From Candidatus Campbellbacteria bacterium (GTDB lineage: Bacteria; Patescibacteriota; Minisyncoccia; Phycocordibacterales; JAXHMZ01), in contig JAXHMZ010000004.1 in NCBI GenBank assembly GCA_034521025.1, forward strand, positions 1-41,314: 41,314 nt of DNA. Reading direction: 5' to 3'. Both the position numbers and the translations under genes were made by a program. Of the stretch, positions 1,347 through 20,981 are shown piece after piece. The notes below the pieces were generated by a model. That model saw only the letters and a list, made by a program, of their open reading frames with translations. It had not been told where the DNA came from and made no database searches. How positions within the stretch are numbered: position 1 is the stretch's first letter; each line of letters opens with the position of its first letter.

Positions 1347-2922
1347 ATGCCAGAAGAGGAAAAGAAAAAGCTGGAACGACAGCTGTGGAAGGTTGCGGAC
1401 GCACTGCGTGGCAAGATGAACGCCGACGAGTACAAGAACTACATTCTTGGCTTCATTTTCTATAAATACCTCTCCGAGCGACTCCTAAAATACGTCGATG
1501 AAAAACTGCTTGCCAGCGAAAATTTTACATACAAAGAGATAACCGAAGGAAGCGAGGAAGGCGAGAAGATACCTCGAGCACATCAAAGACGCCTGTCTCG
1601 GGCATCTTGGCTATTTCTTGCGCCCGTCAGAGCTGTTCTCTTACCTCGTAGCCAAAGGGCAGAGGAGGAAATCGAGGAGACAGAACACGTTCATCCTCGA
1701 AGACCTCAAGAATATCCTCACGAACATCGAGCAGACATCCGCCGGTACCGAAAGCGAAGATGACTTTAAGGGTTTGTTCGACGACGTTGATCTGACCTCC
1801 AGCAAGCTCGGCGCACGAGAAAACGACAAAAACGAGGTTGTCATCGAGATCCTTACCCACCTCGCCGGCATCGAGTTTCATATAAACGGCAGCGACCTGC
1901 TTGGCGATGCCTACGAGTATCTCATCGCGGAGTTTGCCGCCGGTTCAGGCAAGAAGGGCGGCGAGTTTTATACGCCTGAAAAAGTATCAGAGCTTCTTGC
2001 GCGCATTGTGACGGCGGACAAAAAGCGCATCAAAAGCGCCTACGACCCGACCTGCGGATCCGGCTCGCTCCTCCTGCGACTTGACCAGTACACCGATGTT
2101 ACCGACTACTACGGCCAGGAGCTCAACCCGACCACCTATAACCTCGCGCGGATGAATATGATCCTTCACGGTGTTCACTTTTCAAACTTCGATATCCGGC
2201 TTGGCAACACACTCACTGACGATGCACACCCGGACTTGCAAGCGGAGGTGATTGTCGCTAATCCGCCGTTTGGGGCAAATTGGAAAGGCCATACCGACCC
2301 CACACTTGCCCACGACGAGCGATTTTCCCAGTCCGGCCGTCTTGCCCCAAAGAGCGTCGCCGACTATGCGTTCGTCACCCATATGCTCTACCACCTGAGC
2401 GAGAGCGGCACCATGGCAGTGGTCCTGCCGCACGGCGCGCTGTTCCACTCTGGTGCGGAAGAGGAAATCCGCCAGTACATCATCGAGAACCAGAACTATC
2501 TCGATGCGGTTATTGGTTTGCCGGCGAACCTCTTCTACGGCACCTCGATACCGGCGATCGTGATGGTCTTCAAGAAATGTCGGCAAGACGATGACTGCAT
2601 TATGTTCATCGACGCCTCAAAAGAGTTTGAGAAAGGCAAGAACCAGAACTACCTCACCAACGAGAATGTCGAGAAGATCTTCAAGACATACTACGAACGC
2701 AAAGATGTCGAGAAGTATGCACACTGCGCTTACCTCGACGAGATCCGTGAGAACGACTTCAACCTCAACATCCCGCGCTATGTTGACACCTTCGAGGAAG
2801 AAGAGCCGATTGATATTGATGCGGTAGCGAACGATCTGAAGAAACTGCAGTCAAAGGAGCAGAAAACACGGGATGCGATCGCAGGTTTTTGCGATGAGTT
2901 GGAGATAGATAAGCCGTTTTAA
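1347..2922 (+). pseudogene. hsdM: Type I restriction-modification methyltransferase subunit HsdM, one frameshift
   Basis: This is the N6-adenine methyltransferase subunit of a type I system and would work in a complex with HsdS and HsdR. The first frame gives the helical HsdM N-terminal domain ([32 protein letters not shown]). It breaks near 1570; one base removed there restores YLEHIKDA then [14 protein letters not shown] in the frame that runs to 2922. The methyltransferase domain is complete: SAM motif I DPTCGSGSLLL, catalytic motif IV NPPF, and the GGEFYTPEKV segment. The restored length of about 525 residues is normal for HsdM. The DNA is clearly GC-richer, with GCC/CGC/CTC codons, than hsdS and the ATPase downstream. 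It heads a same-strand array running to 8934. Whether the single indel is real or a read error cannot be decided here. Confidence 0.9.
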
Positions 2923-2923
2923 T

Positions 2924-3475
2924 ATGAACAACACCGAAAGCAAAAAGGATCAAGTAAGGCCAATATATTCAGAGCTGCAAGGGTATCTTGAACAGTCACC
3001 TCTGGCGGATAACGGTCAGAAGTATATTTTTGGTGAAATGACTTTAGCTAATCAGGTAAATGCTGCCATTGACGAGCTGGCCGAAATAACGAGTAAGGAT
3101 TTTAATCGGTTTAAGATTGAAATAAAAAACATTGACTCGGGATAGATATCACAACGACCAAAGACAATTATCGACAGTCTGAAACGAGTTGGCTGACGGA
3201 GGATGAAACTCTGACGCTTGATTGGACGAGCCTGCCTATGCAGCGGTATTTATGTCTTTAGAACTGTCATTCAAGTGGCAGACCATCAAGATGCCATTAC
3301 TAATGGATCAGTCTGTGCAAGTTCAGATGATTTTAGAATTTCAAACAAAAGTGATGATAAAGCGTTAACGAAGGTTGAAAGTGGAAGCTCAGAGGAAAAG
3401 TTTTTGGACGTGAGTCAAGGGAGCTCATGAATTCTTCTGTCAAGAGCATTGGACTAGTTCTGCGTTAGTGGCATT
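2924..3475 (+). pseudogene. RM-locus accessory protein of unknown function, multiply frameshifted
   Basis: The gene starts 1 nt after the hsdM stop, so it is translationally linked. The readable pieces, in order, are PIYSELQGYLEQSP, NQVNAAIDELAEI and DFNRFKIEIKN (first frame, to the stop at 3143-3145); DITTTKDNYRQS (3150s); DQSVQVQMILEFQTKV (about 3306-3350); DDKALTKVESGSSEEKFLDV (next frame, to about 3412); and NSSVKSIGLVL (to about 3465). Together they resemble a conserved protein of roughly 180-220 residues that I recall between hsdM and hsdS in other type I loci, but I cannot name a Pfam family or a function. At least three indels break it. The C-terminal half is predicted helical. A role in modulating the complex is only inference from position. 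Confidence 0.6.
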
Positions 3476-3570
3476 CTGCCGCCAAAGCCAAGCGAAGAGT
3501 TGGCAGAGTTTTATATTTATATTACAGGAACATTTATAAGATTGATCTCCAGAAAAGCTAGAAATAGTAA

Positions 3571-4831
3571 TTACTAAGTCCCAACAAAAGAAAACCCAGA
3601 ATATTCCAAAACTCCGCTTTCCGGGTTTTGAGGGTGAGTGGGAGGAGAAGAAGTTGGGGGATTTTATAGTTCAATATAGGCTTGGGGGTAACTATTCTGA
3701 ATACAGATATTAACTCAGGATACCCTTTAATGAAAATGGGGAATTTAGGTAGAGGCAAGTTTGTATTGACAAAGATTGAATACATAAAAGAGGACGAAGA
3801 AATAAATCCTAGAGATAGATCGCTAAAGGTGATATTGCTTTTGTAGCACCAGGAACACTTTAGAATCTAGTGGGCAAGGTTGCTATTTGGAATGGAAGGA
3901 ATATACACTTTTGCATAGATGATAATTGGGCGAATTTAATTCTAGGATTCAAGTTGTAACTGCTTTTCTGAATTAGAGTTATTTAACTCGCAGCAAGGTA
4001 TTGCGTTTGCTAAAATCTATTGCCACATGGAGCAACGAGTCAGTTGCCGCTATCTCAAACACAAAGCGACAGTGTTGAAGATAAAAGCTTCTGTAATTCT
4101 TCCATCACTTATGAACAACAAAAGATCGCCGACTTCCTCAGCTCCGTCGATGAATGGATCGAGTATCTGCGTTCAGAAAAAGCAGCGTGGGAGAAGTACA
4201 AGAAAGGAATGATGCAAAAGATTTTTGCGCAAGAGATTCGTTTTAAAGATGACGACGGAAATAATTTTCCGGAGTGGGAGGAGAAAAAGTTGGGTGAAGC
4301 TGCGTCTTTCAAAAAGGGAAAAGGTATATCAAAAAAAGGATCTCTGTGCAGAATGAAAACAAATGCATCCATTATGGCGAGCTTCTTAGCGAATACGACG
4401 AGCTAATTGATGAAGTTGTTTCCAGCACAGATATTTCAAAGGATGACAGTGTTTTAAGCAAGAGGGAACAGACACTCATGCCGACATCAGATGTTACTCC
4501 TAGAGGCTAGCCACAGCCATGCCTTAAAAGAAAAAGGGGTATGTACTGGGTAGTGATGTTTAAAGTGCAATCGAATGATATATTGAACACCTTCCTTAGC
4601 TACTATATTCACAAACAAAAAAGTGATCATGCGGCTGGTCACTGGTGTAACCGTATATCATATATATGCGTCAGATTAATAAGGATGAGTCTTGTCTCGG
4701 CCATCCTATCTGAACAACAAAAAATCGCTAACTTTTTGACTTCTCTGGATAAAGTAATAGAATCCAAGGAACAGCAAATCGCCCGAGCCGAGCAATGGAA
4801 AAAGGGCTTAATGCAGAAGATGTTTGTGTAA
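3571..4831 (+). pseudogene. hsdS: Type I specificity subunit HsdS, heavily fragmented
   Basis: HsdS recognises the DNA target through two target-recognition domains (TRDs) joined by helical spacers. All the landmarks are present but scattered over frames: PKLRFPGFEGEWEEKKLGD (start of TRD1), YPLMKMGNLGRGKF, LVGKVAIWNGRN, GATSQLPLSQT, central helix EQQKIADFLSSVDEWIE with KKGMMQKIFAQ, a second FPEWEEKKLGE (TRD2), NKCIHYGELLSEYDE, MPTSDVTPRG, LVTGVTVYHIYASD, and the terminal EQQKIANFLTSLDKVIE with MQKMFV. At least five frame changes are needed. No ATG precedes PKLRF in frame; ATT at 3571 sits where an ATG would be expected, so the start may also be mutated. The stretch is AT-richer than hsdM and hsdR. 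It ends 4 nt before the ATPase gene. Confidence 0.85.
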
Positions 4832-4835
4832 AAAT

Positions 4836-6120
4836 ATGTATATTCAGAATGTAAAAATTAAAAATTTTAAAGGTTTCGAAACTTAAATGAAGGTGATGGA
4901 ATAAATTTGCTTTATCCTGATACTACCAAGATAAAGTTGGTTTAAACATTCTTATAGGTGAAAATAATTCTGGTAAAACTAATTTTATTGACGTACTTTC
5001 TAGGCTTAATTGAAAAAATAAAATTTGTTGTAGAGGATTGGAATGTGAAAATTACAGATCAGATAATATTTTAGTAGAGGCAACTTCCTCTGAAAACAGT
5101 ACTCCATAAAATAGAAGGTACTGAACAAAGGTCTACGGTTCACAAAAGCGGAAATTTTTTGAAAGTAAAATAGAGATAATAAAAGATCAGAGAGTCTGGA
5201 ATGCAAAGTATAATTTCGAAGGAACTTTAGAACACAAGGACTATTTAGTTAATAGTAATATGGATAGAAGTTCCATTGATAACAAGTTATCGCAGCTTTT
5301 GGCAAAAATAGAAGAGACAAGAAAACTAAACAAAAATTTACAGATATTTTTAGAAAAGTTTTTGAAGATTTTAGTGATTGGGGTGGAAAAGTCTTATGCA
5401 AAAGCGGGTGATGTTATATCTTACAAGATATCAGATGGTGAATATTTTGATATTGATATGAGTTTAGGTAGTGGGTTGTTAAATCTTTTTAGAATCATTG
5501 CGGCTATTTATTTCGATAAGAAAATAATAGTAATAGATGAACCAGAGGTTTTTTTACATCCATCTGCTCAGATTAAGTTGTCGGAGTTACTTTTTGAGGA
5601 GTCAAAGAAATAGGACAAATAATCATCTCTACACATTCACCATATATGTATCAACTTCCAGTACGGTCTGGTGCCCGTTTAATTCAGTTTGAAAATGATT
5701 TCTGGTAGTGGTATTTCGACTAAGGACGTAACAGAAGACTGGGGTGTGTTTGGAGACAAGAGTCCTACTTGGGGTGAGATTAATTACTGATGTTTACAAC
5801 CTATATACAGTCGAATTCCACAATGAGCTATATGGTTTTATTAAGTCTCAGGCCTATCAAGCCGGACATCTCAATGGAATAACGTTTGATGATTGGTTAC
5901 TTCAAGAATTAAAAAAAGAAGATAAACAAGCAACAAAGCGAGATTGGTATGAAATAGAAAATGGACAGAAAGCACAACGCTTAAAACAAGTAACTAATCC
6001 GCAGTTATATAAGACATACAATTCACCATCCAGAAAACTCACACAATCCTACATTTGAACGATCAAGAATTCCGAGAGTCAACAGATTTTTTAGTAAAAA
6101 TTGCACATCAATTTAAGTAA
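4836..6120 (+). pseudogene. AAA/OLD-like ATPase with HEPN-like C-terminus, fragmented
   Basis: The N-terminus reads MYIQNVKIKNFKGFE, typical of SMC/OLD-like AAA ATPases. Walker A is GENNSGKTN (about 4960-4990), Walker B is IIVIDEPEVFLHPSAQ (about 5527-5568), and a switch histidine lies in QIIISTHSPYMYQLP (about 5612-5655). After further frame changes come SPTWGEIN, then EFHNELYGFIKS and IRHTIHHPEN (about 6010-6036), ending RESTDFLVKIAHQFK and a stop at 6118-6120, 1 nt before hsdR. The R-x3-HH pattern resembles HEPN ribonuclease-type motifs found next to defence ATPases; this is inference. I cannot tell whether the ATPase and HEPN-like parts were one protein or two. At least five indels are present. 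This is the most AT-rich part of the island. A role as an embedded abortive-infection module is plausible but unproven. Confidence 0.65.
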
Positions 6121-6121
6121 T

Positions 6122-8934
6122 ATGCCCCACCAATCCGAGCAACAGCTTGAAAAGACACTGCTAGATCAGCTTGAACAGCTGGGGTTTTCGAAGATCACGT
6201 TGCCGGACACATCCTCGCTCGAGGTGAACCTGCGTACTCAGCTCGAGGAGTTTAACGAAACGACGTTCTCGGATGATGAGTTTAAGCGGATACTGAATCA
6301 TCTCAACAAAGGCGATCGGTATCAGAAGGCGAAGACACTGCGTGATCGGTTTCTCCTGAAGCGAGATGATGAGAGCGACATGTTCGTGCGGTTTTTCAAC
6401 ACTGATCAGTGGTGCAAAAACCAGTACCAAGCTGCCCAGCAGATCACCCAGAAAGGGCGGTACGAGAATCGCTACGACGTGACGATTTTGGTGAACGGCT
6501 TGCCGTTGGTGCAGATCGAGCTCAAGCGCCGCGGAATGGAGCTCAAAGAGGCGTTTAACCAGATCCAGCGGTATCACAAGCACTCCTTTACCGGCACATT
6601 GTTTGAGTACGTGCAGATCTTTGTGATCTCGAACGGCGTGAATACCAAATACTTCTCGAACAACCCGAAGCAATCGTTCGAGCAGACATTTCACTGGACA
6701 GACAAAGAAAATAACAAAATCACCAAGCTCGAGGATTTTACCGAGGCGTTTCTGGAGAAGTGTACGATCTCGAAGTTTATCGCTGAGTATATCGTGCTCG
6801 CTGAGGCGGCAGAGATACCGATGGCGCTGCGGCCGTATCAGTACTACGCCGTGCGGGCGATTGAAAACCGAGTGCGCGAGACAGACAAAAACGGCTACAT
6901 CTGGCACACGACCGGCTCCGGCAAAACACTGACATCGTTTAAGGCGAGTCAGGTATTGAGCGGCATACCGGAGATCAAGAAGGTGCTGTTTGTGGTGGAC
7001 CGCAAGGACTTGGATATTCAGACGACGCGCGAGTTCAACTCATTCTCCGCCGGATCAGTGGACGGGACAGACAAGACCAAGACGCTGGTGGATCAGCTGA
7101 AAGATCAAGACCAGAAGCTGATCGTGACCACGATTCAGAAGCTTGATATCGCCATAAGCCGTGAGTCGTACAGAAAGCAGTTCGAGTATCTGCAGGATGA
7201 AAAGGTGGTGATCATCTTTGATGAGTGTCATCGGAGCCAGTTCGGGCAGACGAACGCGCGGATACAGGACTTTTTCAAGCGGGCGCAGCTATTTGGATTT
7301 ACCGGCACGCCGATCTTTGCCGAGAACCACGTCGGCGGTGTGACCACGGCGGATGTGTTTGATGAGTGTTTGCACAGGTATATCATCACCGATGCGATTG
7401 CGGATAATAACGTGCTTGGCTTTTCGGTGGAGTATGTCGGGAAGTATAAGCAAAAAGATCCGGACGTACTGGATGCGGACATATTCTCTGATGTGGAAGT
7501 TAAGGCCGTGGATACTAGAGAGGTGTTAGAGAGCGAGGAGCGGTTGGAGAAAATTGCCGACTACGTGCTCGGCGACTGGAAGCGTAAAACAAAGAGCGGC
7601 AAATTTAACGCGCTGTTTGCGACGACGTCGATCGATGTATTGAAGAAGTACTACCGGATGTTTAAGGAAAAGAAACCGGACAATCTGAGTATTGCGACTA
7701 TTTTTACTTTCAACGCGAACGAGGATGAGCGTCGCGGATATGCTGGACGTGGACGTGTTTGGTGGCGAGGGTGCTGTGGTCAACCAGCACTCGCGAGATT
7801 TTCTGGAGGACTGTATCAAGGATTACAACGAGCAGTTCGGGACGAATTTTTCGACCGATAGGTTCTAGCGTATACCGATGACCTTCAGCGCAAAAATAAA
7901 AAGCAAGCAGGTGGATTTGACGCTTGTGGTTAATATGTTTTTAACCGGCTTTGATAGTGAGCGACTGAATACACTGTATGTAGATAAGAATCTGCGATAC
8001 CACGGACTGATCCAGGCGTACTCGCGCACGAACCGGCTTTCAAATTCTGATAAGCCGCACGGAAATATTGTGTCTTTCCGGAACCTGAAGAAAGCAACGG
8101 ACAAGGCGCTCGCCCTTTTTGGTGACGAGAATGCCAAGGAGGTGGTGTTCAAAAAACCGTGACGAGGAGCAAAAGAAAGAATTTGATGAGAAACTCGACA
8201 AGCTTTGTGAACAAACACCGAGTGTTGAGGCAATTGACACACTTGATAGCGAAGAGAAACGATCTGAGTTTGTGAAGACATTTAGAGATCTGTTACGGAT
8301 CAAATCATCACTTGAGACATTTGCGGAGTTTTCGTTTGATGATCTTGAGATCAGTGAGCAAGAGTTTTATGACTATCAAAGCAAGTACCTAGATATTTAC
8401 GAAGAGCGCAAGAGCAGTGAAGGCGAGGCTGAGTCAATTTTGGACCAGATTGATTTTGAGCTCGAGCTGACGGTTCGAGATATCGTGAATTTTGACTATA
8501 TTATTCAGTTAATTGCTGGATTAAAAAATATTAAATCTGACTGAATTGCGAGAGAAGAAAGACGGAAGAAATATTGCGAATATTTGATCGGGATGTTCGT
8601 CTTCGCAAGAAGAAAGATTTGATCAAAAAGTTTATCGAGGAGAATTTGCCGAAGGTCGATAAGGCAAACGGTGTAGAAGAAGCTTTCGAGAAGTTTTGGG
8701 AAAGTGAGCGCTCCGATGTTCTAAAAGACATGACAGAGAAGGAGAATATAACACGCGAGCAGTTTGAGGAGCTTGTCGGTGAATATCTATACACCGGTCG
8801 ACTTCCAGAAGAACAGGCAGATTGCAGACGCCATTGAAGGCGGGCCGCCTCCTATTTTGGAACGAAAGAGCGTCATCGGCCGCATTAAATCAGCGATTGA
8901 AAATATCGTCGATATATTTGAGTGGGAAAGATAA
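6122..8934 (+). pseudogene. hsdR: Type I restriction endonuclease subunit HsdR, six frameshifts
   Basis: HsdR is the ATP-driven DNA translocase and nuclease of type I restriction. From the ATG at 6122 the first 535 or so residues are intact. The PD-(D/E)XK nuclease has D119 in YDVTILV and E133/K135 in IELK; Walker A is TTGSGKT (264-270 region); motif II is DECH (367-370); motif III is GFTGTP. The frame then shifts six times, near 7734, 7867, 7895, 8155, 8540 and 8815. Each time a recognisable HsdR block resumes: [68 protein letters not shown] and the C-terminal VDIFEWER. Restored length is about 935 residues. Several shifts lie in A-runs (7890s, 8150s). Protein conservation between breaks argues that any decay is very recent, or that the indels are sequence errors. 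It is GC-rich like hsdM. Confidence 0.9.
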
Positions 8935-8941
8935 ATAAATA

Positions 8942-8970
8942 GGTCAACCTGCCAGGTTGACCATTTTATA
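8942..8970 (+). terminator. Terminator after hsdR (within left repeat)
   Basis: A perfect 8-bp stem GGTCAACC/GGTTGACC with loop TGCCA is followed by ATTTTATATT, 8 nt after the hsdR stop. Confidence 0.75.
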
Positions 8971-8994
8971 TTACGTCAAATCGCACTGTTAGGT

Positions 8995-9000
8995 TATAAT
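8995..9000 (+). promoter_or_regulatory. -10 box of the DUF2779 gene
   Basis: A perfect TATAAT ends 11 nt before the ATG at 9012, so the predicted leader is only about 4-5 nt. No clear -35 hexamer is seen at 17 nt. The same box drives yvcK in the right-hand copy. Confidence 0.65.
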
Positions 9001-9011
9001 CCAGTTAATTT

Positions 9012-10487
9012 ATGCTTTCAAAATCTGATTATTTACAATATTTAAAACATCCGGCTTGGGTCTGGCTGAAAAAGCACGACAAAAGCAAACTACCGCCGGT
9101 GGATGAAGATCTGCAGGCGCGATTCGATGACGGCAATCTCTTTGAGTCGTACGCGAACCAACTATTCCCGCACGCTACCAAACTAGAGTGGAACGATTAC
9201 TCTGACTACAAACTACTGCCTCAAAAAACCATGGAGGCGCTTCGCGAGGGAGCGTTTGTGATTCAGCAAGGTAGGTTTGAGGCGGGCGATATCACCTGCA
9301 TCGTCGATGTTCTCGAGCATGTTGAGTCCAATGTATACAATCTCTATGAGATCAAAGCGAGCACCCAAGCCAAGCCCGAACACGTAGAGGATCTTGCTTT
9401 TCAAACTATCGTTCTTGAGAGATGCGGGCTTGAGATCAAGAACACTCGAGTAATTCACGTAGATAACACATATATACGCAAAGGAGAGATCAGTGTAGAG
9501 GGGCTTACCGCAACCACTGACATAACCGAAAAGGTAAAAGCACAGATACCAATTACGGAGAGCGGTATTGAGGACGCTCTGTCTGTTATCAGTCAACCGG
9601 ACATGCCGGATCCTTCACCGCGCTATGCTTCTTCGAGGGGTTTTCAGGAATGGATGGATGTATTTCGATATCTGTATCCAGATACTGACAAGCACAGTAT
9701 TTATAATTTGCCGGGGATAAGGCCGAAGCTTATAGCTCAGTTGGAAGATGCCGGCATTGAATTTATTCATGATATACCCGAAGAGTATCCGCTCGGAGAT
9801 AAATCGCTCCAATACATAAAGCTGTTGGAAGAAGAGGAAAGCCGAGACGCAAACGAGATCAGAAATTTTCTTCAGTCTTTTCAATATCCGCTCTATTTTC
9901 TGGATTATGAGACGTATGGATCTGTTATACCTCCATTTGATGGTATGCGTCCGTATCAGCAGATACCGTTTCAGTACTCTCTACATCGGATCGATGCGCC
10001 CGACGCGGAAGTGGTACATACCGACTACTTGCACACGGAATCTAGTAACCCCGCAAGCGCCATAGTGTCGCGACTAAAAGAGGACATCGGGTCAACTGGT
10101 GCTGTAGTAGTCTGGAATGAGAGTTTTGAGAAAACATGCAACTCTCTGTTGGCGGACATGGTGCCTGAAGAATCTGAATTTCTCCATGATCTGAATGACC
10201 GAGTGGTTGATCTGATGGTCCCGTTTTCAAAGAAGTGGTTCGAGCACAGAGATTTTCTGGGAAGCGCGTCGATCAAAGCCGTGTTACCTGTCTTGGTTCC
10301 GGAACTAAGCTACAAAGAATTAGAGGTGTCGGACGGAGGTACTGCTCAGCGCCTGTGGGCTCAAACCATTTTACGGGGAGAGAATGATAATAGACAGGAG
10401 CAGGTATTGGAAGATTTGCGCGCCTACTGTGAGCTCGACACCCTCGCGATGGTAAAAATCTGGCGGATATTGCAAGGTTTGAATTGA
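9012..10487 (+). CDS. DUF2779 protein: PD-(D/E)XK-like plus DEDD-type exonuclease domains
   Basis: The protein has 491 residues. The N-terminal part resembles a Cas4/RecB-like nuclease core: D99 in ITCIVDVLEH, E113 and K115 in YEIKAST, and Q131 in LAFQTIVLE. No iron-sulfur cysteine set is seen. The middle (about 228-260) carries a short helix-hairpin-like LPGIRPKLIAQLEDAGI segment. The C-terminal half looks like the DUF2779 RNase-H-fold exonuclease: FLDYET with D298 and E300, WNESFEKTC, and AYCELDTLAMVKIW with D476. The combination is known for DUF2779 proteins; a nucleic-acid-degrading role follows from family knowledge, and its target is unknown. It is the first gene of a repeat-flanked cassette with HicBA and has an intact frame, unlike the island to its left. 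A mobile or defence-linked function is inference from context. Confidence 0.8.
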   Translation: MLSKSDYLQYLKHPAWVWLKKHDKSKLPPVDEDLQARFDDGNLFESYANQLFPHATKLEWNDYSDYKLLPQKTMEALREGAFVIQQGRFEAGDITCIVDVLEHVESNVYNLYEIKASTQAKPEHVEDLAFQTIVLERCGLEIKNTRVIHVDNTYIRKGEISVEGLTATTDITEKVKAQIPITESGIEDALSVISQPDMPDPSPRYASSRGFQEWMDVFRYLYPDTDKHSIYNLPGIRPKLIAQLEDAGIEFIHDIPEEYPLGDKSLQYIKLLEEEESRDANEIRNFLQSFQYPLYFLDYETYGSVIPPFDGMRPYQQIPFQYSLHRIDAPDAEVVHTDYLHTESSNPASAIVSRLKEDIGSTGAVVVWNESFEKTCNSLLADMVPEESEFLHDLNDRVVDLMVPFSKKWFEHRDFLGSASIKAVLPVLVPELSYKELEVSDGGTAQRLWAQTILRGENDNRQEQVLEDLRAYCELDTLAMVKIWRILQGLN

Positions 10488-10536
10488 AGTAAATATGATC
10501 TACACACAGAAAATACAAAAAGCGGTTAATTTTTGA

Positions 10537-10542
10537 TAAGAT
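10537..10542 (+). promoter_or_regulatory. -10 box of hicB, leaderless geometry
   Basis: TAAGAT ends 8 nt before the hicB ATG at 10551, with no Shine-Dalgarno. The hicBA pair therefore probably has its own promoter separate from the DUF2779 gene. Confidence 0.45.
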
Positions 10543-10550
10543 ATTAGCAT

Positions 10551-10832
10551 ATGAAGCCGGAAAAACTCCAACTCACAGTGAATTTTATTAAGCACGGTAG
10601 ACAGGTCGTTGCGTATTCACCCGCGCTAGATATTTCTACGGTCGGTAAAACTGAGAAAAAAGCGAAAGAACGATTTGAAGAGCTCGTAGACATCTTTTTT
10701 GAAGAGATTGCTGAGGAAGGAACCACAGAGCAGGCGCTCAAAGAGCTTGGGTGGAGGAAAGTAAAGAAACACTGGCAACCACCAGCAGTATCGCAGGAGT
10801 CTGTTGACGTTAATGTGTCGATGCCTGCCTAG
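10551..10832 (+). CDS. hicB: HicB-family antitoxin
   Basis: A 93-residue protein with the HicB partial RNase-H-like fold: strand-forming QLTVNFIKHGRQVVAYSPALDISTVGKT followed by the helix EKKAKERFEELVDIFFEEIAEEG. HicB binds and blocks HicA and usually represses its own operon through a C-terminal DNA-binding part. Here the tail after residue 70 is short and shows no clear helix-turn-helix. The order is antitoxin first, with the toxin 14 nt downstream, so they are co-transcribed. Assignment rests on domain pattern plus the adjacent HicA. Confidence 0.8.
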   Translation: MKPEKLQLTVNFIKHGRQVVAYSPALDISTVGKTEKKAKERFEELVDIFFEEIAEEGTTEQALKELGWRKVKKHWQPPAVSQESVDVNVSMPA

Positions 10833-10846
10833 GTTGTAGTAACTCT

Positions 10847-11083
10847 ATGCCGGAGCTCGGTTCAGTTCACTGGAAAAAACTCGAAGCGTTTGTTCTGAAA
10901 GAAGGATGCCGGTTTAAGCGCGAAAAGGGCGATCATCGCATATATTGGCGAAAGGATCTTAGCAGACCTGTGGTAATCCCGCGCTACAAGGAATTGCCGC
11001 CATTTGTTGTACAAAACAACCTCCGTCTCATAGGGGTCAGTGCAAAAGAGTTCCGCTCATTTCTTCGGGCGAACAAAAAATAG
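10847..11083 (+). CDS. hicA: HicA-family mRNA interferase toxin
   Basis: A 78-residue protein with the double-stranded-RNA-binding-like HicA fold: WKKLEAFVLKEGCRFKREKGDHRIYWRK, then VVIPRYKELPPFVVQNNLRLIGVSAKEF. The catalytic histidine expected in the G-x-H motif is H30 (GDHRIY). HicA cleaves mRNA and arrests growth until neutralised by HicB. The gene is intact, so the pair may be active. It sits in the repeat-flanked cassette, consistent with toxin-antitoxin modules being carried on accessory DNA. Confidence 0.85.
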   Translation: MPELGSVHWKKLEAFVLKEGCRFKREKGDHRIYWRKDLSRPVVIPRYKELPPFVVQNNLRLIGVSAKEFRSFLRANKK

Positions 11084-11256
11084 AGGGGTATAAGAAAATT
11101 ATGCAAAAGTCGGAATTTTGCATACATTTGGAAGAGATGGAACAAGGTGAGGAATTGAGCAAGTGAGTAAAGCCGGCCAGTTGGTGGTGTATAAAGAGGC
11201 CTAGGAAGTCTGTCTAAATGCTAAAACCGAGTAGGCTTTAGTGTTTAACCAGTAGT

Positions 11257-11284
11257 TTGAGCGGCTTTGCGTCGAGAGTATAAT
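11257..11284 (+). promoter_or_regulatory. Promoter of the amber-interrupted gene
   Basis: TTGAGC (11257-11262), a 16-nt spacer and a perfect TATAAT (11279-11284) end 8 nt before the ATG at 11293. It supports a real gene start there. The region 11084-11256 shows no other coding signal; it holds only an AT-rich spacer and a few short stop-rich frames. Confidence 0.65.
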
Positions 11285-11292
11285 GAGGCTAT

Positions 11293-11637
11293 ATGGCGAG
11301 AAAAGCAAAATTTCAAGAAAATACAAAACAAACTCCTAAAAAGGGCAGGAAAGAACTTTCTCCAACAGGTCGAAAGGTCAGGACTAGCTACGAAACAGCG
11401 GCTAAAAAACTGGGTCGTACTTAGGCGGTATGCGATTCCTATCTCACAATTATTAAAAAGCTGTACCCCGAAAGCGCGAATATTATTCGTAATGAAGCAG
11501 ACGAGGACTTTTCAGCAATTCATGAATATGCTCTTTATCTCGTCGCTTTGATTACAGCCCGATCACACAGAGACAGGGGTGAGCTATCAACTGTCACTAC
11601 GTCTTTCTTGAAGGAAGCATTCAGAAAAGCTGGATAG
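11293..11637 (+). pseudogene. Small Lys-rich protein gene interrupted by one in-frame TAG
   Basis: From the promoter-defined ATG the frame reads MARKAKFQENTKQTPKKGRK, then LSPTGRKVRTSYETAAKKLGRT, and hits TAG at 11422-11424. The same frame then continues open for 70 codons (AVCDSYLTIIKKLYPESANI, then EYALYLVALITARSHRDRGE) to a TAG-TAG pair at 11635-11640. The whole reads as one 113-residue helical protein with a basic N-terminus. The intact first part alone would be 43 residues. I do not recognise the family. The stop could be a point mutation, an assembly error, or two separate small genes. Other genes in the window use TAG as a normal stop, so recoding is unlikely. Confidence 0.5.
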
Positions 11638-11734
11638 TAGACCGAGTCATTAAATAAAGCGGCCGCCCCCCAAGTTGGCAACTTTTCAGTTTCAGTTGAG
11701 CCTTAACTCGAACTATTTCTGATCTGACGTAAAG

Positions 11735-11803
11735 AGGTCAACCTGCCACGTTGACTATTTTTTATTACGTCAAAACGGGCGGTTGGGTTATAATCCAGTT
11801 AAT
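11735..11803. repeat. 69-bp terminator-promoter repeat, right copy
   Basis: This is the partner of 8941-9009. The hairpin is weaker here (GTCAAC/GTTGAC with a longer loop) but a T6 tail follows, so it still terminates the cassette. The TATAAT at 11789-11794 drives yvcK. The 90 nt between the amber gene and this repeat contain only a GC-rich patch (GCGGCCGCC) and no gene. Confidence 0.9.
11789..11794 (+). promoter_or_regulatory. -10 box of yvcK, leaderless geometry
   Basis: TATAAT ends 7 nt before the ATG at 11802. A longer upstream reading (from 11751) would translate through the promoter, so 11802 is the start. The result is a leaderless mRNA. Confidence 0.75.
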
Positions 11804-12770
11804 GAAAAAGGTGGTTACTATTGGCGGCGGTGGAGGGCACTCTAAGGTTCTTGAAGCGATCAAGGAAATCCCTGATATTCAAATTACCGGGATTTGTCCC
11901 AGTACTGATTCGGGCGGTTCGACCGGTGTTTTGCGGGAAGAATACGACGGTAGTGGATACACCGGGGATCTGACAAGATGCATACTCGCGCTTTGTGACG
12001 ATGAGGTTCTCGTAGACGGGCTTTCTTATCGTTATGAAAGCGGTCCTCTACATACTCATTCTGTAAAAAACTTGCTTTTTCACGCCCTCGAGAAAGTGAG
12101 TGATACATATACGGCTCTCGAGGAGATTTGGAAGGTGTGTGATTTGGGTGTTCATCGCGTACTTCCGGTGACTACCGAAAATACCGAGCTGTGCGCGAGG
12201 TTAACCACAGGCAACACGGTAACAGGAGAGACCAATATAGATACTATTGCCAAGAATCCGCTTTGGAATCCTAACTTTCATTCGATCTCTGATATTTATC
12301 TCAAGCCTGAGGTTCGAGTTTCAGACGTGGCGGCAAATGCGATCAAAGAGGCTGATTGGTTGATCGTTTCCCCTGGGAATCTGTATTCAAGCACACTTCC
12401 TACCTTGCTACCTTTGGGGATGAAGGAGGCCATCGCGAGCTCTTCGGCAAAAATTGTCATTATTTTGAATATTATGACTAAGCAAGGAGAGACGGACGAC
12501 TATACGGCAGAAGATTTTATAAAAAGGATCGAGGGCAGAGTGGGGAAGAAAGCGGACTATATCTTGCACAACAATGTCCCGATACCGGAGGACGTTTTCT
12601 TGCGGTATTCGCTTGAAAGAAAGGTTGAGCTAAAGACTTCCGATGGAGAGGACCCAAGGATCATCCCGAGCCCCCTCGCTACATTCACTGAGTCAGGACA
12701 GATCTTTAGTAGTCCAGAGGTCATACGAGAAGAGATACTTAAGTTACTACAAAATACTGATTCAAAATAA
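11802..12770 (+). CDS. yvcK: YvcK/CofD-like gluconeogenesis factor
   Basis: A 322-residue member of the YvcK (CofD-like) family. These proteins bind UDP-sugars and are needed for cell-shape maintenance and growth on gluconeogenic carbon in Bacillus. The Rossmann nucleotide-binding loop is at the N-terminus (VVTIGGGGGHSKVL), followed by TDSGGSTGVLREEY and YTGDLTRCILAL. LIVSPGNLYSS and the C-terminal YILHNNVPIPEDV are also typical. MKKVVTIGGGGG begins right at the ATG after the promoter, which decides the start. It stands alone, with a predicted promoter on each side. Assignment is secure at family level; the partner sugar nucleotide is not visible. Confidence 0.9.
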   Translation: MKKVVTIGGGGGHSKVLEAIKEIPDIQITGICPSTDSGGSTGVLREEYDGSGYTGDLTRCILALCDDEVLVDGLSYRYESGPLHTHSVKNLLFHALEKVSDTYTALEEIWKVCDLGVHRVLPVTTENTELCARLTTGNTVTGETNIDTIAKNPLWNPNFHSISDIYLKPEVRVSDVAANAIKEADWLIVSPGNLYSSTLPTLLPLGMKEAIASSSAKIVIILNIMTKQGETDDYTAEDFIKRIEGRVGKKADYILHNNVPIPEDVFLRYSLERKVELKTSDGEDPRIIPSPLATFTESGQIFSSPEVIREEILKLLQNTDSK

Positions 12771-14179: not shown

Positions 14180-14201
14180 TATAAAAGAACCAACAAGAGA
14201 T

Positions 14202-14270
14202 CTATAGAAAGTAGTTAAGAATGCTGAGAGCGTAGTAGGCGCCAATAGCGAGAAGTGCTAAGTGCTCGAT
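14202..14270 (-). pseudogene. Remnant of a second thioredoxin/CcdA gene 3' end
   Basis: Read on the minus strand this encodes 22 residues, ending GAYYALSILNYFL and TAG. It differs from the C-terminus of the intact gene at 15152-16348 by two residues. At DNA level 14196-14270 aligns ungapped to 15146-15220 with 66 of 75 identical by hand count, and similarity stops abruptly at 14270, just before the palindrome of the regulator gene. It is a truncated copy with no start codon. Most differences are synonymous or conservative. Confidence 0.85.
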
Positions 14271-14339: not shown

Positions 14340-14993
14340 GTGAATGGAGCAAATACGCACGGGAGAACGGTAGATTCCTTGACGCGCGCGAGCAGATGGC
14401 ACAAAGATGCGACGGCTAATCTATTCAACTATGAACCTGGTGACCACATTTATCGCGAGATGGACGAAGCCGATACAGTGTTCAAGGTTGTAAGTGGACT
14501 GGTTCTACTAACGCAGCCTTTCGCGCGTACAAACTATGAGTTCAGTGATAAGTGCGCGTGCGTATGCGGTCCGGAGGACACGTTCGGAGGATTGTTTGGA
14601 GATGATGAGTATCGCGAAGACGCGACTACCTTGGTTCAAACCCAAGTACAAGCGTATCGACTTGAGGATGTACCAAGTGAAGTATTGCTTCCGATGACTC
14701 AAGAAGCGGCTCGTAATCAGCGCGAAGCAACAGCTGTTGTGCACGGAGGATCGGTGCGCACTCGAGTTGCGCGCATGCTCGCACTTCTCTGTCGCAAATA
14801 CTTTTGCGATAACGATGTTGTTGTGAAGATCACACACCAAATGCTCGCAGAGTTGATTGCAGTCACGCGCGAATCAGTTACACGCGCGTTGAATGAGCTG
14901 GAAATGTACGAGTACATTACCTTGAAACACTCGAGCATTGAAGTGCACGATGCGACCGCACTCGAAGAGATCCTCCTTAATGGACTGGACTGA
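14340..14993 (+). CDS. Crp/Fnr-family transcription regulator with CxCxC motif
   Basis: A 217-residue protein with an N-terminal cyclic-nucleotide-binding-like beta-roll (about 24-110: FNYEPGDHIYREMDEADTVF, VVSGLVLL), a dimer helix, and a C-terminal winged helix (about 161-200: ITHQMLAELIAVTRESVTRA). The roll carries Cys72, Cys74 and Cys76 as KCACVCG, and two more cysteines (151, 156) precede the DNA-binding domain. The classical cAMP-binding arginine-serine pair is not evident. Cys clustering suggests redox, metal or Fe-S sensing, which is inference. The neighbouring thiol-disulfide exporter and copper ATPase fit that idea. The start is GTG with a strong Shine-Dalgarno; a palindrome upstream suggests autoregulation. 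Confidence 0.85.
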   Translation: MNGANTHGRTVDSLTRASRWHKDATANLFNYEPGDHIYREMDEADTVFKVVSGLVLLTQPFARTNYEFSDKCACVCGPEDTFGGLFGDDEYREDATTLVQTQVQAYRLEDVPSEVLLPMTQEAARNQREATAVVHGGSVRTRVARMLALLCRKYFCDNDVVVKITHQMLAELIAVTRESVTRALNELEMYEYITLKHSSIEVHDATALEEILLNGLD

Positions 14994-15027: not shown

Positions 15028-15151
15028 TAACAAAACTTTCGGATGATTCGGTAGGGGGGGGGAGGCAGTGAGAGCAGATATGATCTTATTGTCTCAGAGG
15101 ATAGTCTGGCAATCGGGGGGTCTATTGTGCCCTTAAACTAAAAAGAGAGAT

Positions 15152-16348
15152 CTATAGGAAATAGTTAAGAATGCTGAGAGCGTAGTAGGCACCAATAGAG
15201 AGAAGCGCCAAGCCCTCTATCAGAGCCGCCCAAATCGTAAAAGATGGGGAGGCAAGCCATATGTGAAGTCGCCAGACAGCAATGGCAAAGATTATCAACT
15301 CATCTAAGAGATAGAACAGGACAAATAGTCCGATCAGCCCCGTATAGCTCGGGGCTGATAATCCGGCGCCCGCGAGCATACCGGCGAACATTACCGGCAC
15401 TCCTGCCGAGCAAGGGAATTCAACTATTGTGATCACAGCCGCAAACGCTACTATCGCGAGGATCAGAGTAAAGACACTATTCTGGTTCTGGAACAAACCC
15501 TGGACCCACTTGGTGGTTTTGTTTATCAATGGTGATTGTCCGCTCTCGCAGGTAACACCGTGGCGTTTGAAACGCAAGTATTCTTTAATGAAATAAACAC
15601 CTCCGGCGATGCCGATCGCGGCCAAGGTGAGCTCTAGCCAGAACATATGCGGTGCTAAATAGGAGAATAGCTGGTGCCACAATAGTATCAACAGGCCGTA
15701 AATAACGGCGGTAGTCAGTACAAAAGCTCCGCCATAAAGAGCTATTTTTCGTCGGGAGCCTAGAGTTAGAACCAAGCCCAAAATTAGTATCAAGGCGCCA
15801 AGTGAGCACACGTTGAAGCCATCAAGAATACCCAGCGTTATCGCTACAACCGGTAAAGATAGCTCACTCAGGTTAATGTTCAGACCAAGTAGAGAAATAG
15901 AATTATCGCCATCCTCTCGCTCGGTGCTGTTTTTGTTTTGAGGAAGACCAAATTCTTGCTCCAACAATCCGATGATCTCTTGGCCCGTGCCACTGGGGTT
16001 GTCAAAGCCAACTATGTAGCTATCGCCGATAAAGGTCAGTGGAACCACTCCCAGGTATTGCTCAGCTCCTGTTTCTTCGGCTCGTTCTCGCAATAGATCG
16101 TGATAGTCAGCGTTAGAGATAGGGTAACGCTCGATCTCTACAGACGGATAGTCTTTGGAGAGTTGGTCCAAGAAACGTTGTTCGGCGTGGCAGTGCGGAC
16201 AAGTGTCGCTATAGAAAAACTGCAAGCTGGCTTCTTCGGCCGACTGCGAATTGATTTGTTCAGTCTGTGCGCGGGCTGTATCTACAGCAAATACAGCAAA
16301 AAACATTAGTGCTATTAAACCGACAAAAGTAAAAAGACGAGTTAGCAT
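15152..16348 (-). CDS. Thioredoxin-fold plus CcdA/DsbD-like thiol-disulfide membrane protein
   Basis: A 398-residue fusion. Residues 1-27 form a signal peptide ending ARA. A thioredoxin/glutaredoxin-like domain follows with C50-P-H-C53 and the cis-Pro loop VVPLTF (P103). From about 165 there are six or more transmembrane helices with the paired intramembrane cysteines of the CcdA/DsbD family: C181 in GFNVCSLGAL and C313 in EFPCSAGVP. CcdA-type proteins pass electrons from cytoplasmic thioredoxin across the membrane to extracytoplasmic thiols. Here the acceptor domain is fused at the N-terminus, in the order opposite to DsbD. It is convergent with the Crp-like gene and divergent from the copper ATPase. 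A truncated copy of its 3' end lies at 14202-14270. Confidence 0.85.
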   Translation of the reverse strand: MLTRLFTFVGLIALMFFAVFAVDTARAQTEQINSQSAEEASLQFFYSDTCPHCHAEQRFLDQLSKDYPSVEIERYPISNADYHDLLRERAEETGAEQYLGVVPLTFIGDSYIVGFDNPSGTGQEIIGLLEQEFGLPQNKNSTEREDGDNSISLLGLNINLSELSLPVVAITLGILDGFNVCSLGALILILGLVLTLGSRRKIALYGGAFVLTTAVIYGLLILLWHQLFSYLAPHMFWLELTLAAIGIAGGVYFIKEYLRFKRHGVTCESGQSPLINKTTKWVQGLFQNQNSVFTLILAIVAFAAVITIVEFPCSAGVPVMFAGMLAGAGLSAPSYTGLIGLFVLFYLLDELIIFAIAVWRLHIWLASPSFTIWAALIEGLALLSIGAYYALSILNYFL

Positions 16349-20879: not shown

Positions 20880-20916
20880 GCTTTTTTAAGCAAAAACTAA
20901 ACAGAAAGATCAATTT

Positions 20917-20946
20917 AAATGCTTCAATCTATAGATTGAAGCATTT
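20917..20946. terminator. Bidirectional terminator between convergent genes
   Basis: A perfect 13-bp stem AAATGCTTCAATC/GATTGAAGCATTT with loop TATA. T-rich DNA lies on both sides, so it serves both the secreted protein and the minus-strand membrane protein. Confidence 0.85.
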
Positions 20947-20981
20947 ATTTTTGCGCTATTATTATTTAGCCTATTAGCCTA

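Follow-up and report, generated by a model that had tools for sequence, protein, structure and literature searches.

The window, the 41,314 nucleotides analyzed here, is the start of contig C4 of the 686-kb genome G000. It contains two copies of an intergenic control unit, one upstream of a DUF2779 gene and the other upstream of yvcK. The features at the locus, in window coordinates, are:

1347-8934, + strand: broken type I restriction-modification genes hsdM, hsdS and hsdR, with frameshifts or stops, directly upstream of the bracketed genes
8936-9009, + strand: left copy of the module, palindrome/terminator plus putative leaderless promoter of the DUF2779 gene
8943-8961, + strand: REP-like palindrome, exact consensus GTCAACCTGCCAGGTTGAC, bidirectional terminator-like; the left 19 bp of the module
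8995-9000, + strand: TATAAT of the putative DUF2779 promoter, 11 nt 5' of the ATG at 9012
9012-10487, + strand: DUF2779 protein gene (family match E 2.5e-39)
10551-10832, + strand: HicB-like putative antitoxin, called from position and size only, without a Pfam match
10847-11083, + strand: HicA toxin (PF07927, E 3e-10; phrog_353)
11293-11636, + strand: orfX, the 'broken gene', with an in-frame TAG and without a family match
11725-11772, no strand assigned: outer inverted arms TGACGTAA (11725-11732) and TTACGTCA (11765-11772) around the right palindrome
11730-11803, + strand: right copy of the module, palindrome/terminator plus putative leaderless promoter of yvcK
11737-11755, + strand: REP-like palindrome, CCAC variant GTCAACCTGCCACGTTGAC, a variant also present in G223, G248, G101 and G087
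11789-11794, + strand: TATAAT of the putative yvcK promoter, 7 nt 5' of the ATG at 11802
11802-12770, + strand: yvcK, CofD-related (YvcK/CofD, E 2e-59)

The hsdR gene is spread over several frames, and its frame closes immediately 5' of the left repeat; most genes downstream of hsdM, hsdS and hsdR are intact. The family literature places DUF2779 among the RNase H-like 3'-5' exonucleases and describes its N-terminal part as PD-(D/E)XK-like; the 3'-5' exonuclease activity is a prediction (PMC3985635). An earlier note on this DNA had read the bracketed genes as a nuclease, a HicBA toxin-antitoxin pair and a broken gene. The family matches uphold DUF2779 and HicA, and the broken gene has its in-frame TAG; HicB stays a putative call. 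The note had further treated DUF2779-hicBA as one cassette. This is not a known unit, and a linked cassette was rejected because hicBA lies beside none of the DUF2779 homologues in the 8 relatives inspected. DUF2779 is patchily distributed in the order (31/197 genomes), and neither DUF2779 nor hicBA has a match in PADLOC. The GC content of the segment equals that of its surroundings, and the segment thus carries no foreign mark.

The repeats described earlier, at 8941-9009 and 11735-11803, were recovered as reported, with 61 of 69 bases identical and no gaps; a repeat search extends them to 74 bp (8936-9009 and 11730-11803) at 88% identity. Full-length matches to the module occur only at these two sites in the genome (E 1e-30 and 5e-20), the remaining matches being to the hairpin alone. 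Similarly, GGTTATAATCCAGTTAAT is found only at the two module sites with up to 3 mismatches allowed, and the right ~42 bp of the module, its promoter part, occurs in the genome only at DUF2779 and yvcK. The possibility that the repeat recurs elsewhere in the genome thus holds for the hairpin half, which is dispersed over about 14 sites, but not for the whole unit. With the hairpin (19 bp) and the TATAAT left out, the copies still agree at 35 of 42 bases (binomial P about 7e-14). The two modules are therefore one intergenic control unit that was truly duplicated as a whole, as the note had proposed, and not two converged terminators. An Rfam search with the module gave no match.

The module appears to be built of two pieces, a REP-like palindrome that would act as an intrinsic terminator and a putative leaderless promoter. 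On the + strand both copies score as intrinsic terminators, with a T tract behind a GC-containing stem, and both have a TATAAT near the ATG, in line with the terminator-promoter composition assigned to the unit before. The left copy has a 9-bp stem and a terminator score on the + and - strands, and lacks the left outer arm. The right copy has 7 stem pairs, with one pair broken, and a better T tail than the left. Both hairpins would be expected to end transcription. The distance from TATAAT to ATG suggests that the DUF2779 and yvcK transcripts are leaderless. A promoter scan did not call the duplicated promoter, a -35 match being missing, so that the leaderless reading depends on the TATAAT spacing; a window-wide test was weak (11/27 genes vs 6/27 in the control). 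The copied promoter had also been thought to supply the whole cargo, but it cannot serve all of these genes, as hicB and orfX have promoter-like sequences of their own.

The palindrome consists of two half sites of 6 bases each (GTCAAC/GTTGAC) around a 7-base centre. GTCAACCTGCCAGGTTGAC and its near variants account for about 14 sites in G000, and no genome has more than 10-14. In a sample of the order, the palindrome is present at up to 1 mismatch in 12 of 297 genomes, including G049 with 12 exact copies and G223 with about 12; in congeners of G049 it is low-copy or absent. A phylum-wide sample of 380 genomes yields only 3 matching genomes, all from this order, and the palindrome is in none of the sampled genomes outside it. 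The reversed-pattern control gives 0 matches in G000, G049 and G223. There is no exact match in IMG/VR, and a phage origin of the palindrome was set aside on this ground. Most sites separate genes that are co-directional or convergent; 4 of the 55 classified sites fall between divergent genes. The hairpin apex keeps its sequence from genus to genus within the order, and the outer arms vary between clades (G049, for example, has CCCCCGT/ACGGGGG). Beyond the core, the flanks are more complementary than controls in which flanks were re-paired within genomes (0/5000 shuffles, all sites). A GT(A/G)G head occurs within 8 nt of either hairpin foot at only 2 of 53 sites, and we therefore do not class the palindrome with the classical GTAG REPs. 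T-rich tails follow 10 of the 14 sites in G000, consistent with terminator use; G049 and G223 together have such tails at 5 of 23 sites (p 0.005). However, all 6 palindromes of G087 have T tails, so these are not special to genomes without a transposase and the contrast is not clean.

RAYTs are REP-associated tyrosine transposases. The single Y1_Tnp gene of G049, which encodes 222 aa, lies between two palindrome copies, as does a Y1 gene in G223 whose product is 52% identical to that of G049. An orthologous transposase in G248 (49% identical) lies between two copies of a sister palindrome, GTCAACGTCGTATGTTGAC. The flanking palindromes have the same orientation in all three genomes, although the near-perfect symmetry makes orientation a weak character and other loci show both. 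The HUH motif (H72, H74) and Y133-x3-N137 are invariant in the three proteins, for which a catalytic role as transposases is putative, by analogy. These proteins match Pfam Y1_Tnp and NCBIfam REP_Tyr_transpos weakly, below the cut-offs; the latter is the best family of the RAYT-like proteins (E 2e-6 to 3e-3, below its cut-off), and a sequence search of the PDB with a RAYT-like protein gave no match. Across the order, a palindromic word common to both flanks is present at no fewer than 38 of 56 RAYT-like loci vs 0 of 39 control loci, a lower bound because the scan uses exact words and diverged palindromes may escape it. Among the genomes sampled, the palindrome family is found only in this order, and it is tied to RAYT-like Y1/HUH transposases, whose genes it flanks in relatives of G000. 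This RAYT-linked palindrome system in an order of the Patescibacteria is the main result. Literature searches, within the limits of the library searched, returned no report of such a system in this bacterial group. Many different flanking palindromes are seen at RAYT-like genes across the order (L150-L208), apparently one per transposase lineage.

G248 also contains two CCAC-variant palindromes, though the palindromes around its RAYT have another core, and no close RAYT exists in most genomes with 1-6 palindrome copies; cognate pairing is therefore firm only in G049 and G223. Transposase presence goes with palindrome richness in these two genomes but not in G000, which has 14 sites. No RAYT is detectable in G000, and its palindrome copies thus look like orphan REPs. 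A search for empty palindrome sites in congeners of G049 showed that these lack the RAYT stretch, with synteny too broken for junction mapping.

In the gammaproteobacterial RAYT-REP systems, two REPs flank the RAYT gene and solo copies are scattered between genes (Nunvar et al., 2010; PMC2817692). The present system resembles these in its short extragenic palindromes, two of them around a Y1/HUH transposase gene, in the intergenic solo copies, and in that palindrome and transposase diverge together. It differs in the lack of the GT(A/G)G head, in the shared orientation of the flanking copies, so far as it can be judged, and in the absence of a transposase from the window's genome. Copy numbers also differ, as gammaproteobacterial REPs often exceed 100 per genome and the palindrome of this order reaches about 10-14. 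Atypical hairpins have been described for some subclasses of the TnpA_REP / TnpA_Y1 superfamily, and no mention of Parcubacteria was found in the text of that study (Quentin et al., 2018; PMC6006769). The HUH and Y-x3-N motifs, the size of about 220 aa and the hairpin-flanked gene are shared with this superfamily, but the proteins of the order match the curated family only weakly, below its cut-off, and match nothing in the PDB by sequence. As in IS200/IS605, a Y1 transposase lies between subterminal hairpins. However, G049 has many solo palindromes and one transposase gene, and the protein is nearer to RAYT than to IS200 TnpA. The order of hairpin, T tract and TATAAT 5' of the start codon is that of an ordinary intrinsic terminator followed by a promoter, from which the module differs in its apex, conserved across genera of the order, and in the duplication of the entire unit.

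Our preferred account, which as a whole we hold to be rather probable, is a duplicated REP-terminator and promoter module, with orphan palindromes and a segment joined by recombination. The left module would end the broken hsdR unit and start DUF2779, and the right module would end the preceding unit and start yvcK. More tentatively, the second copy may have arisen when the DUF2779-hicBA segment joined an accessory island upstream of yvcK, through recombination between DNAs sharing the module, for example by single-crossover uptake of a donor piece. After such a crossover, the resident copy and the donor copy would stand as direct repeats that differ by about 12%, and the joining would require no RAYT action. 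With copies 12% apart, the event would not be recent, unless the copies stem from different lineages. Since the hairpin is a dispersed REP-like palindrome, it is by itself no evidence of insertion at this locus. The duplication of 69-74 bp also far exceeds the target-site duplications of ordinary transposons. Insertion of the segment at the yvcK locus is nevertheless plausible: the broken type I restriction-modification genes, the patchy DUF2779 and a serine recombinase near a DUF2779 homologue on an IMG/VR contig count for joining to an accessory island. On that contig (L209), the homologue (46%) has as neighbours a large serine recombinase and a 713-aa protein that contains a TnsA-like domain. 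Neither an empty site nor an excised form was observed. A DNA search for an empty site in 60 relatives, among them no family-level relative, matched the genome itself alone, and the closest yvcK genes in GTDB genomes (49-55% identical) have unrelated neighbours, no repeat and no synteny. A second direct repeat in the window (75 bp, 88%; 14196-14270 and 15146-15220) encloses a gene for a crp-like regulator (14340-14993). The left copy of this repeat is a 3' piece, in frame, of the gene at 15152-16348, and 6 of 8 changed codons are synonymous, as expected if both copies come from two functional genes. In 241 kb of G000, this repeat and the module are the only short close direct repeats outside paralogous gene arrays, and both brackets would be accounted for by recombination with a donor whose DNA had diverged by about 12%.

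The unit could also have been duplicated locally, without any cassette, the terminator-promoter of yvcK or DUF2779 having been copied in place or left over from a tandem duplication followed by loss. The copied stretch corresponds to one intergenic control unit, the GC content of the bracketed segment matches its surroundings, and the inspected relatives show no linkage of DUF2779 to hicBA, all of which agree with such an origin. However, it requires the loss of all other duplicated sequence, and the adjacent decayed restriction-modification genes and the other bracket, that around crp, suggest that this region acquired DNA repeatedly, so that we regard local duplication as possible but doubtful. 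Movement of the DNA between direct palindromes as a composite, by a RAYT since lost, appears improbable. Palindromes do flank RAYT-like genes in the same orientation in three relatives, and in G000 itself two paralogues (L005 1499-2232 and L008 1499-2229; 84% over 735 bp) each end in the palindrome, with homology stopping 2 bp outside it. Against this, G000 has no RAYT, and the sequence common to the two modules extends 48 bp beyond the palindrome, which such movement does not predict. We know of no composite element of this palindrome-bounded kind for RAYTs.

The remaining alternatives concern the palindrome and the assembly. The palindrome might not be a REP but a site bound by a regulator, or a common terminator whose sequence is convergent. 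Its symmetric six-base half sites with a 7-base centre would suit a regulator, and the T tails in G000 a terminator, but sites between divergent genes are rare, congeners of G049 have few or no copies, and the palindrome flanks RAYT-like genes, with sister RAYTs carrying sister palindromes; we consider this reading unlikely. An assembly artefact is very improbable. The genome is a draft of 5 contigs, and elsewhere on the contig a 7.6-kb stretch (153726-161314 of C4; L215) matches its own reverse complement at 97%, as a possible artefact or a true inverted duplication. However, the two module copies have 8 mismatches in 69 positions and their flanks are not alike, whereas a duplicated or collapsed read stack would be identical.

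Patescibacteria genomes are tiny and usually considered repeat-poor, and the head sequence is thought to guide known RAYTs. As a speculative generalization, many genomes of this one order may host low-copy, head-less RAYT-palindrome systems, with one palindrome per lineage, whose orphan palindromes became terminators and boundaries for unit duplication and cassette insertion, as at yvcK. If this were true, RAYT-palindrome systems would reach the Patescibacteria, those of this order would do without the guiding head, and many natural transposase-palindrome pairs would be available for the study of co-evolution. At the locus itself, an orphan palindrome and a promoter would have been copied together, giving an accessory nuclease gene a housekeeping promoter. 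Other repeats are also present. A second repeated palindrome, TAAATGCTTCAATCTATAGATTGAAGCATTTA, lies at 20916-20947 of the window and elsewhere, with 11 copies in 241 kb of G000, and a nested double palindrome (L014, 1501-1532) lies upstream of genes that resemble rpsF-ssb-rpsR from their translations.
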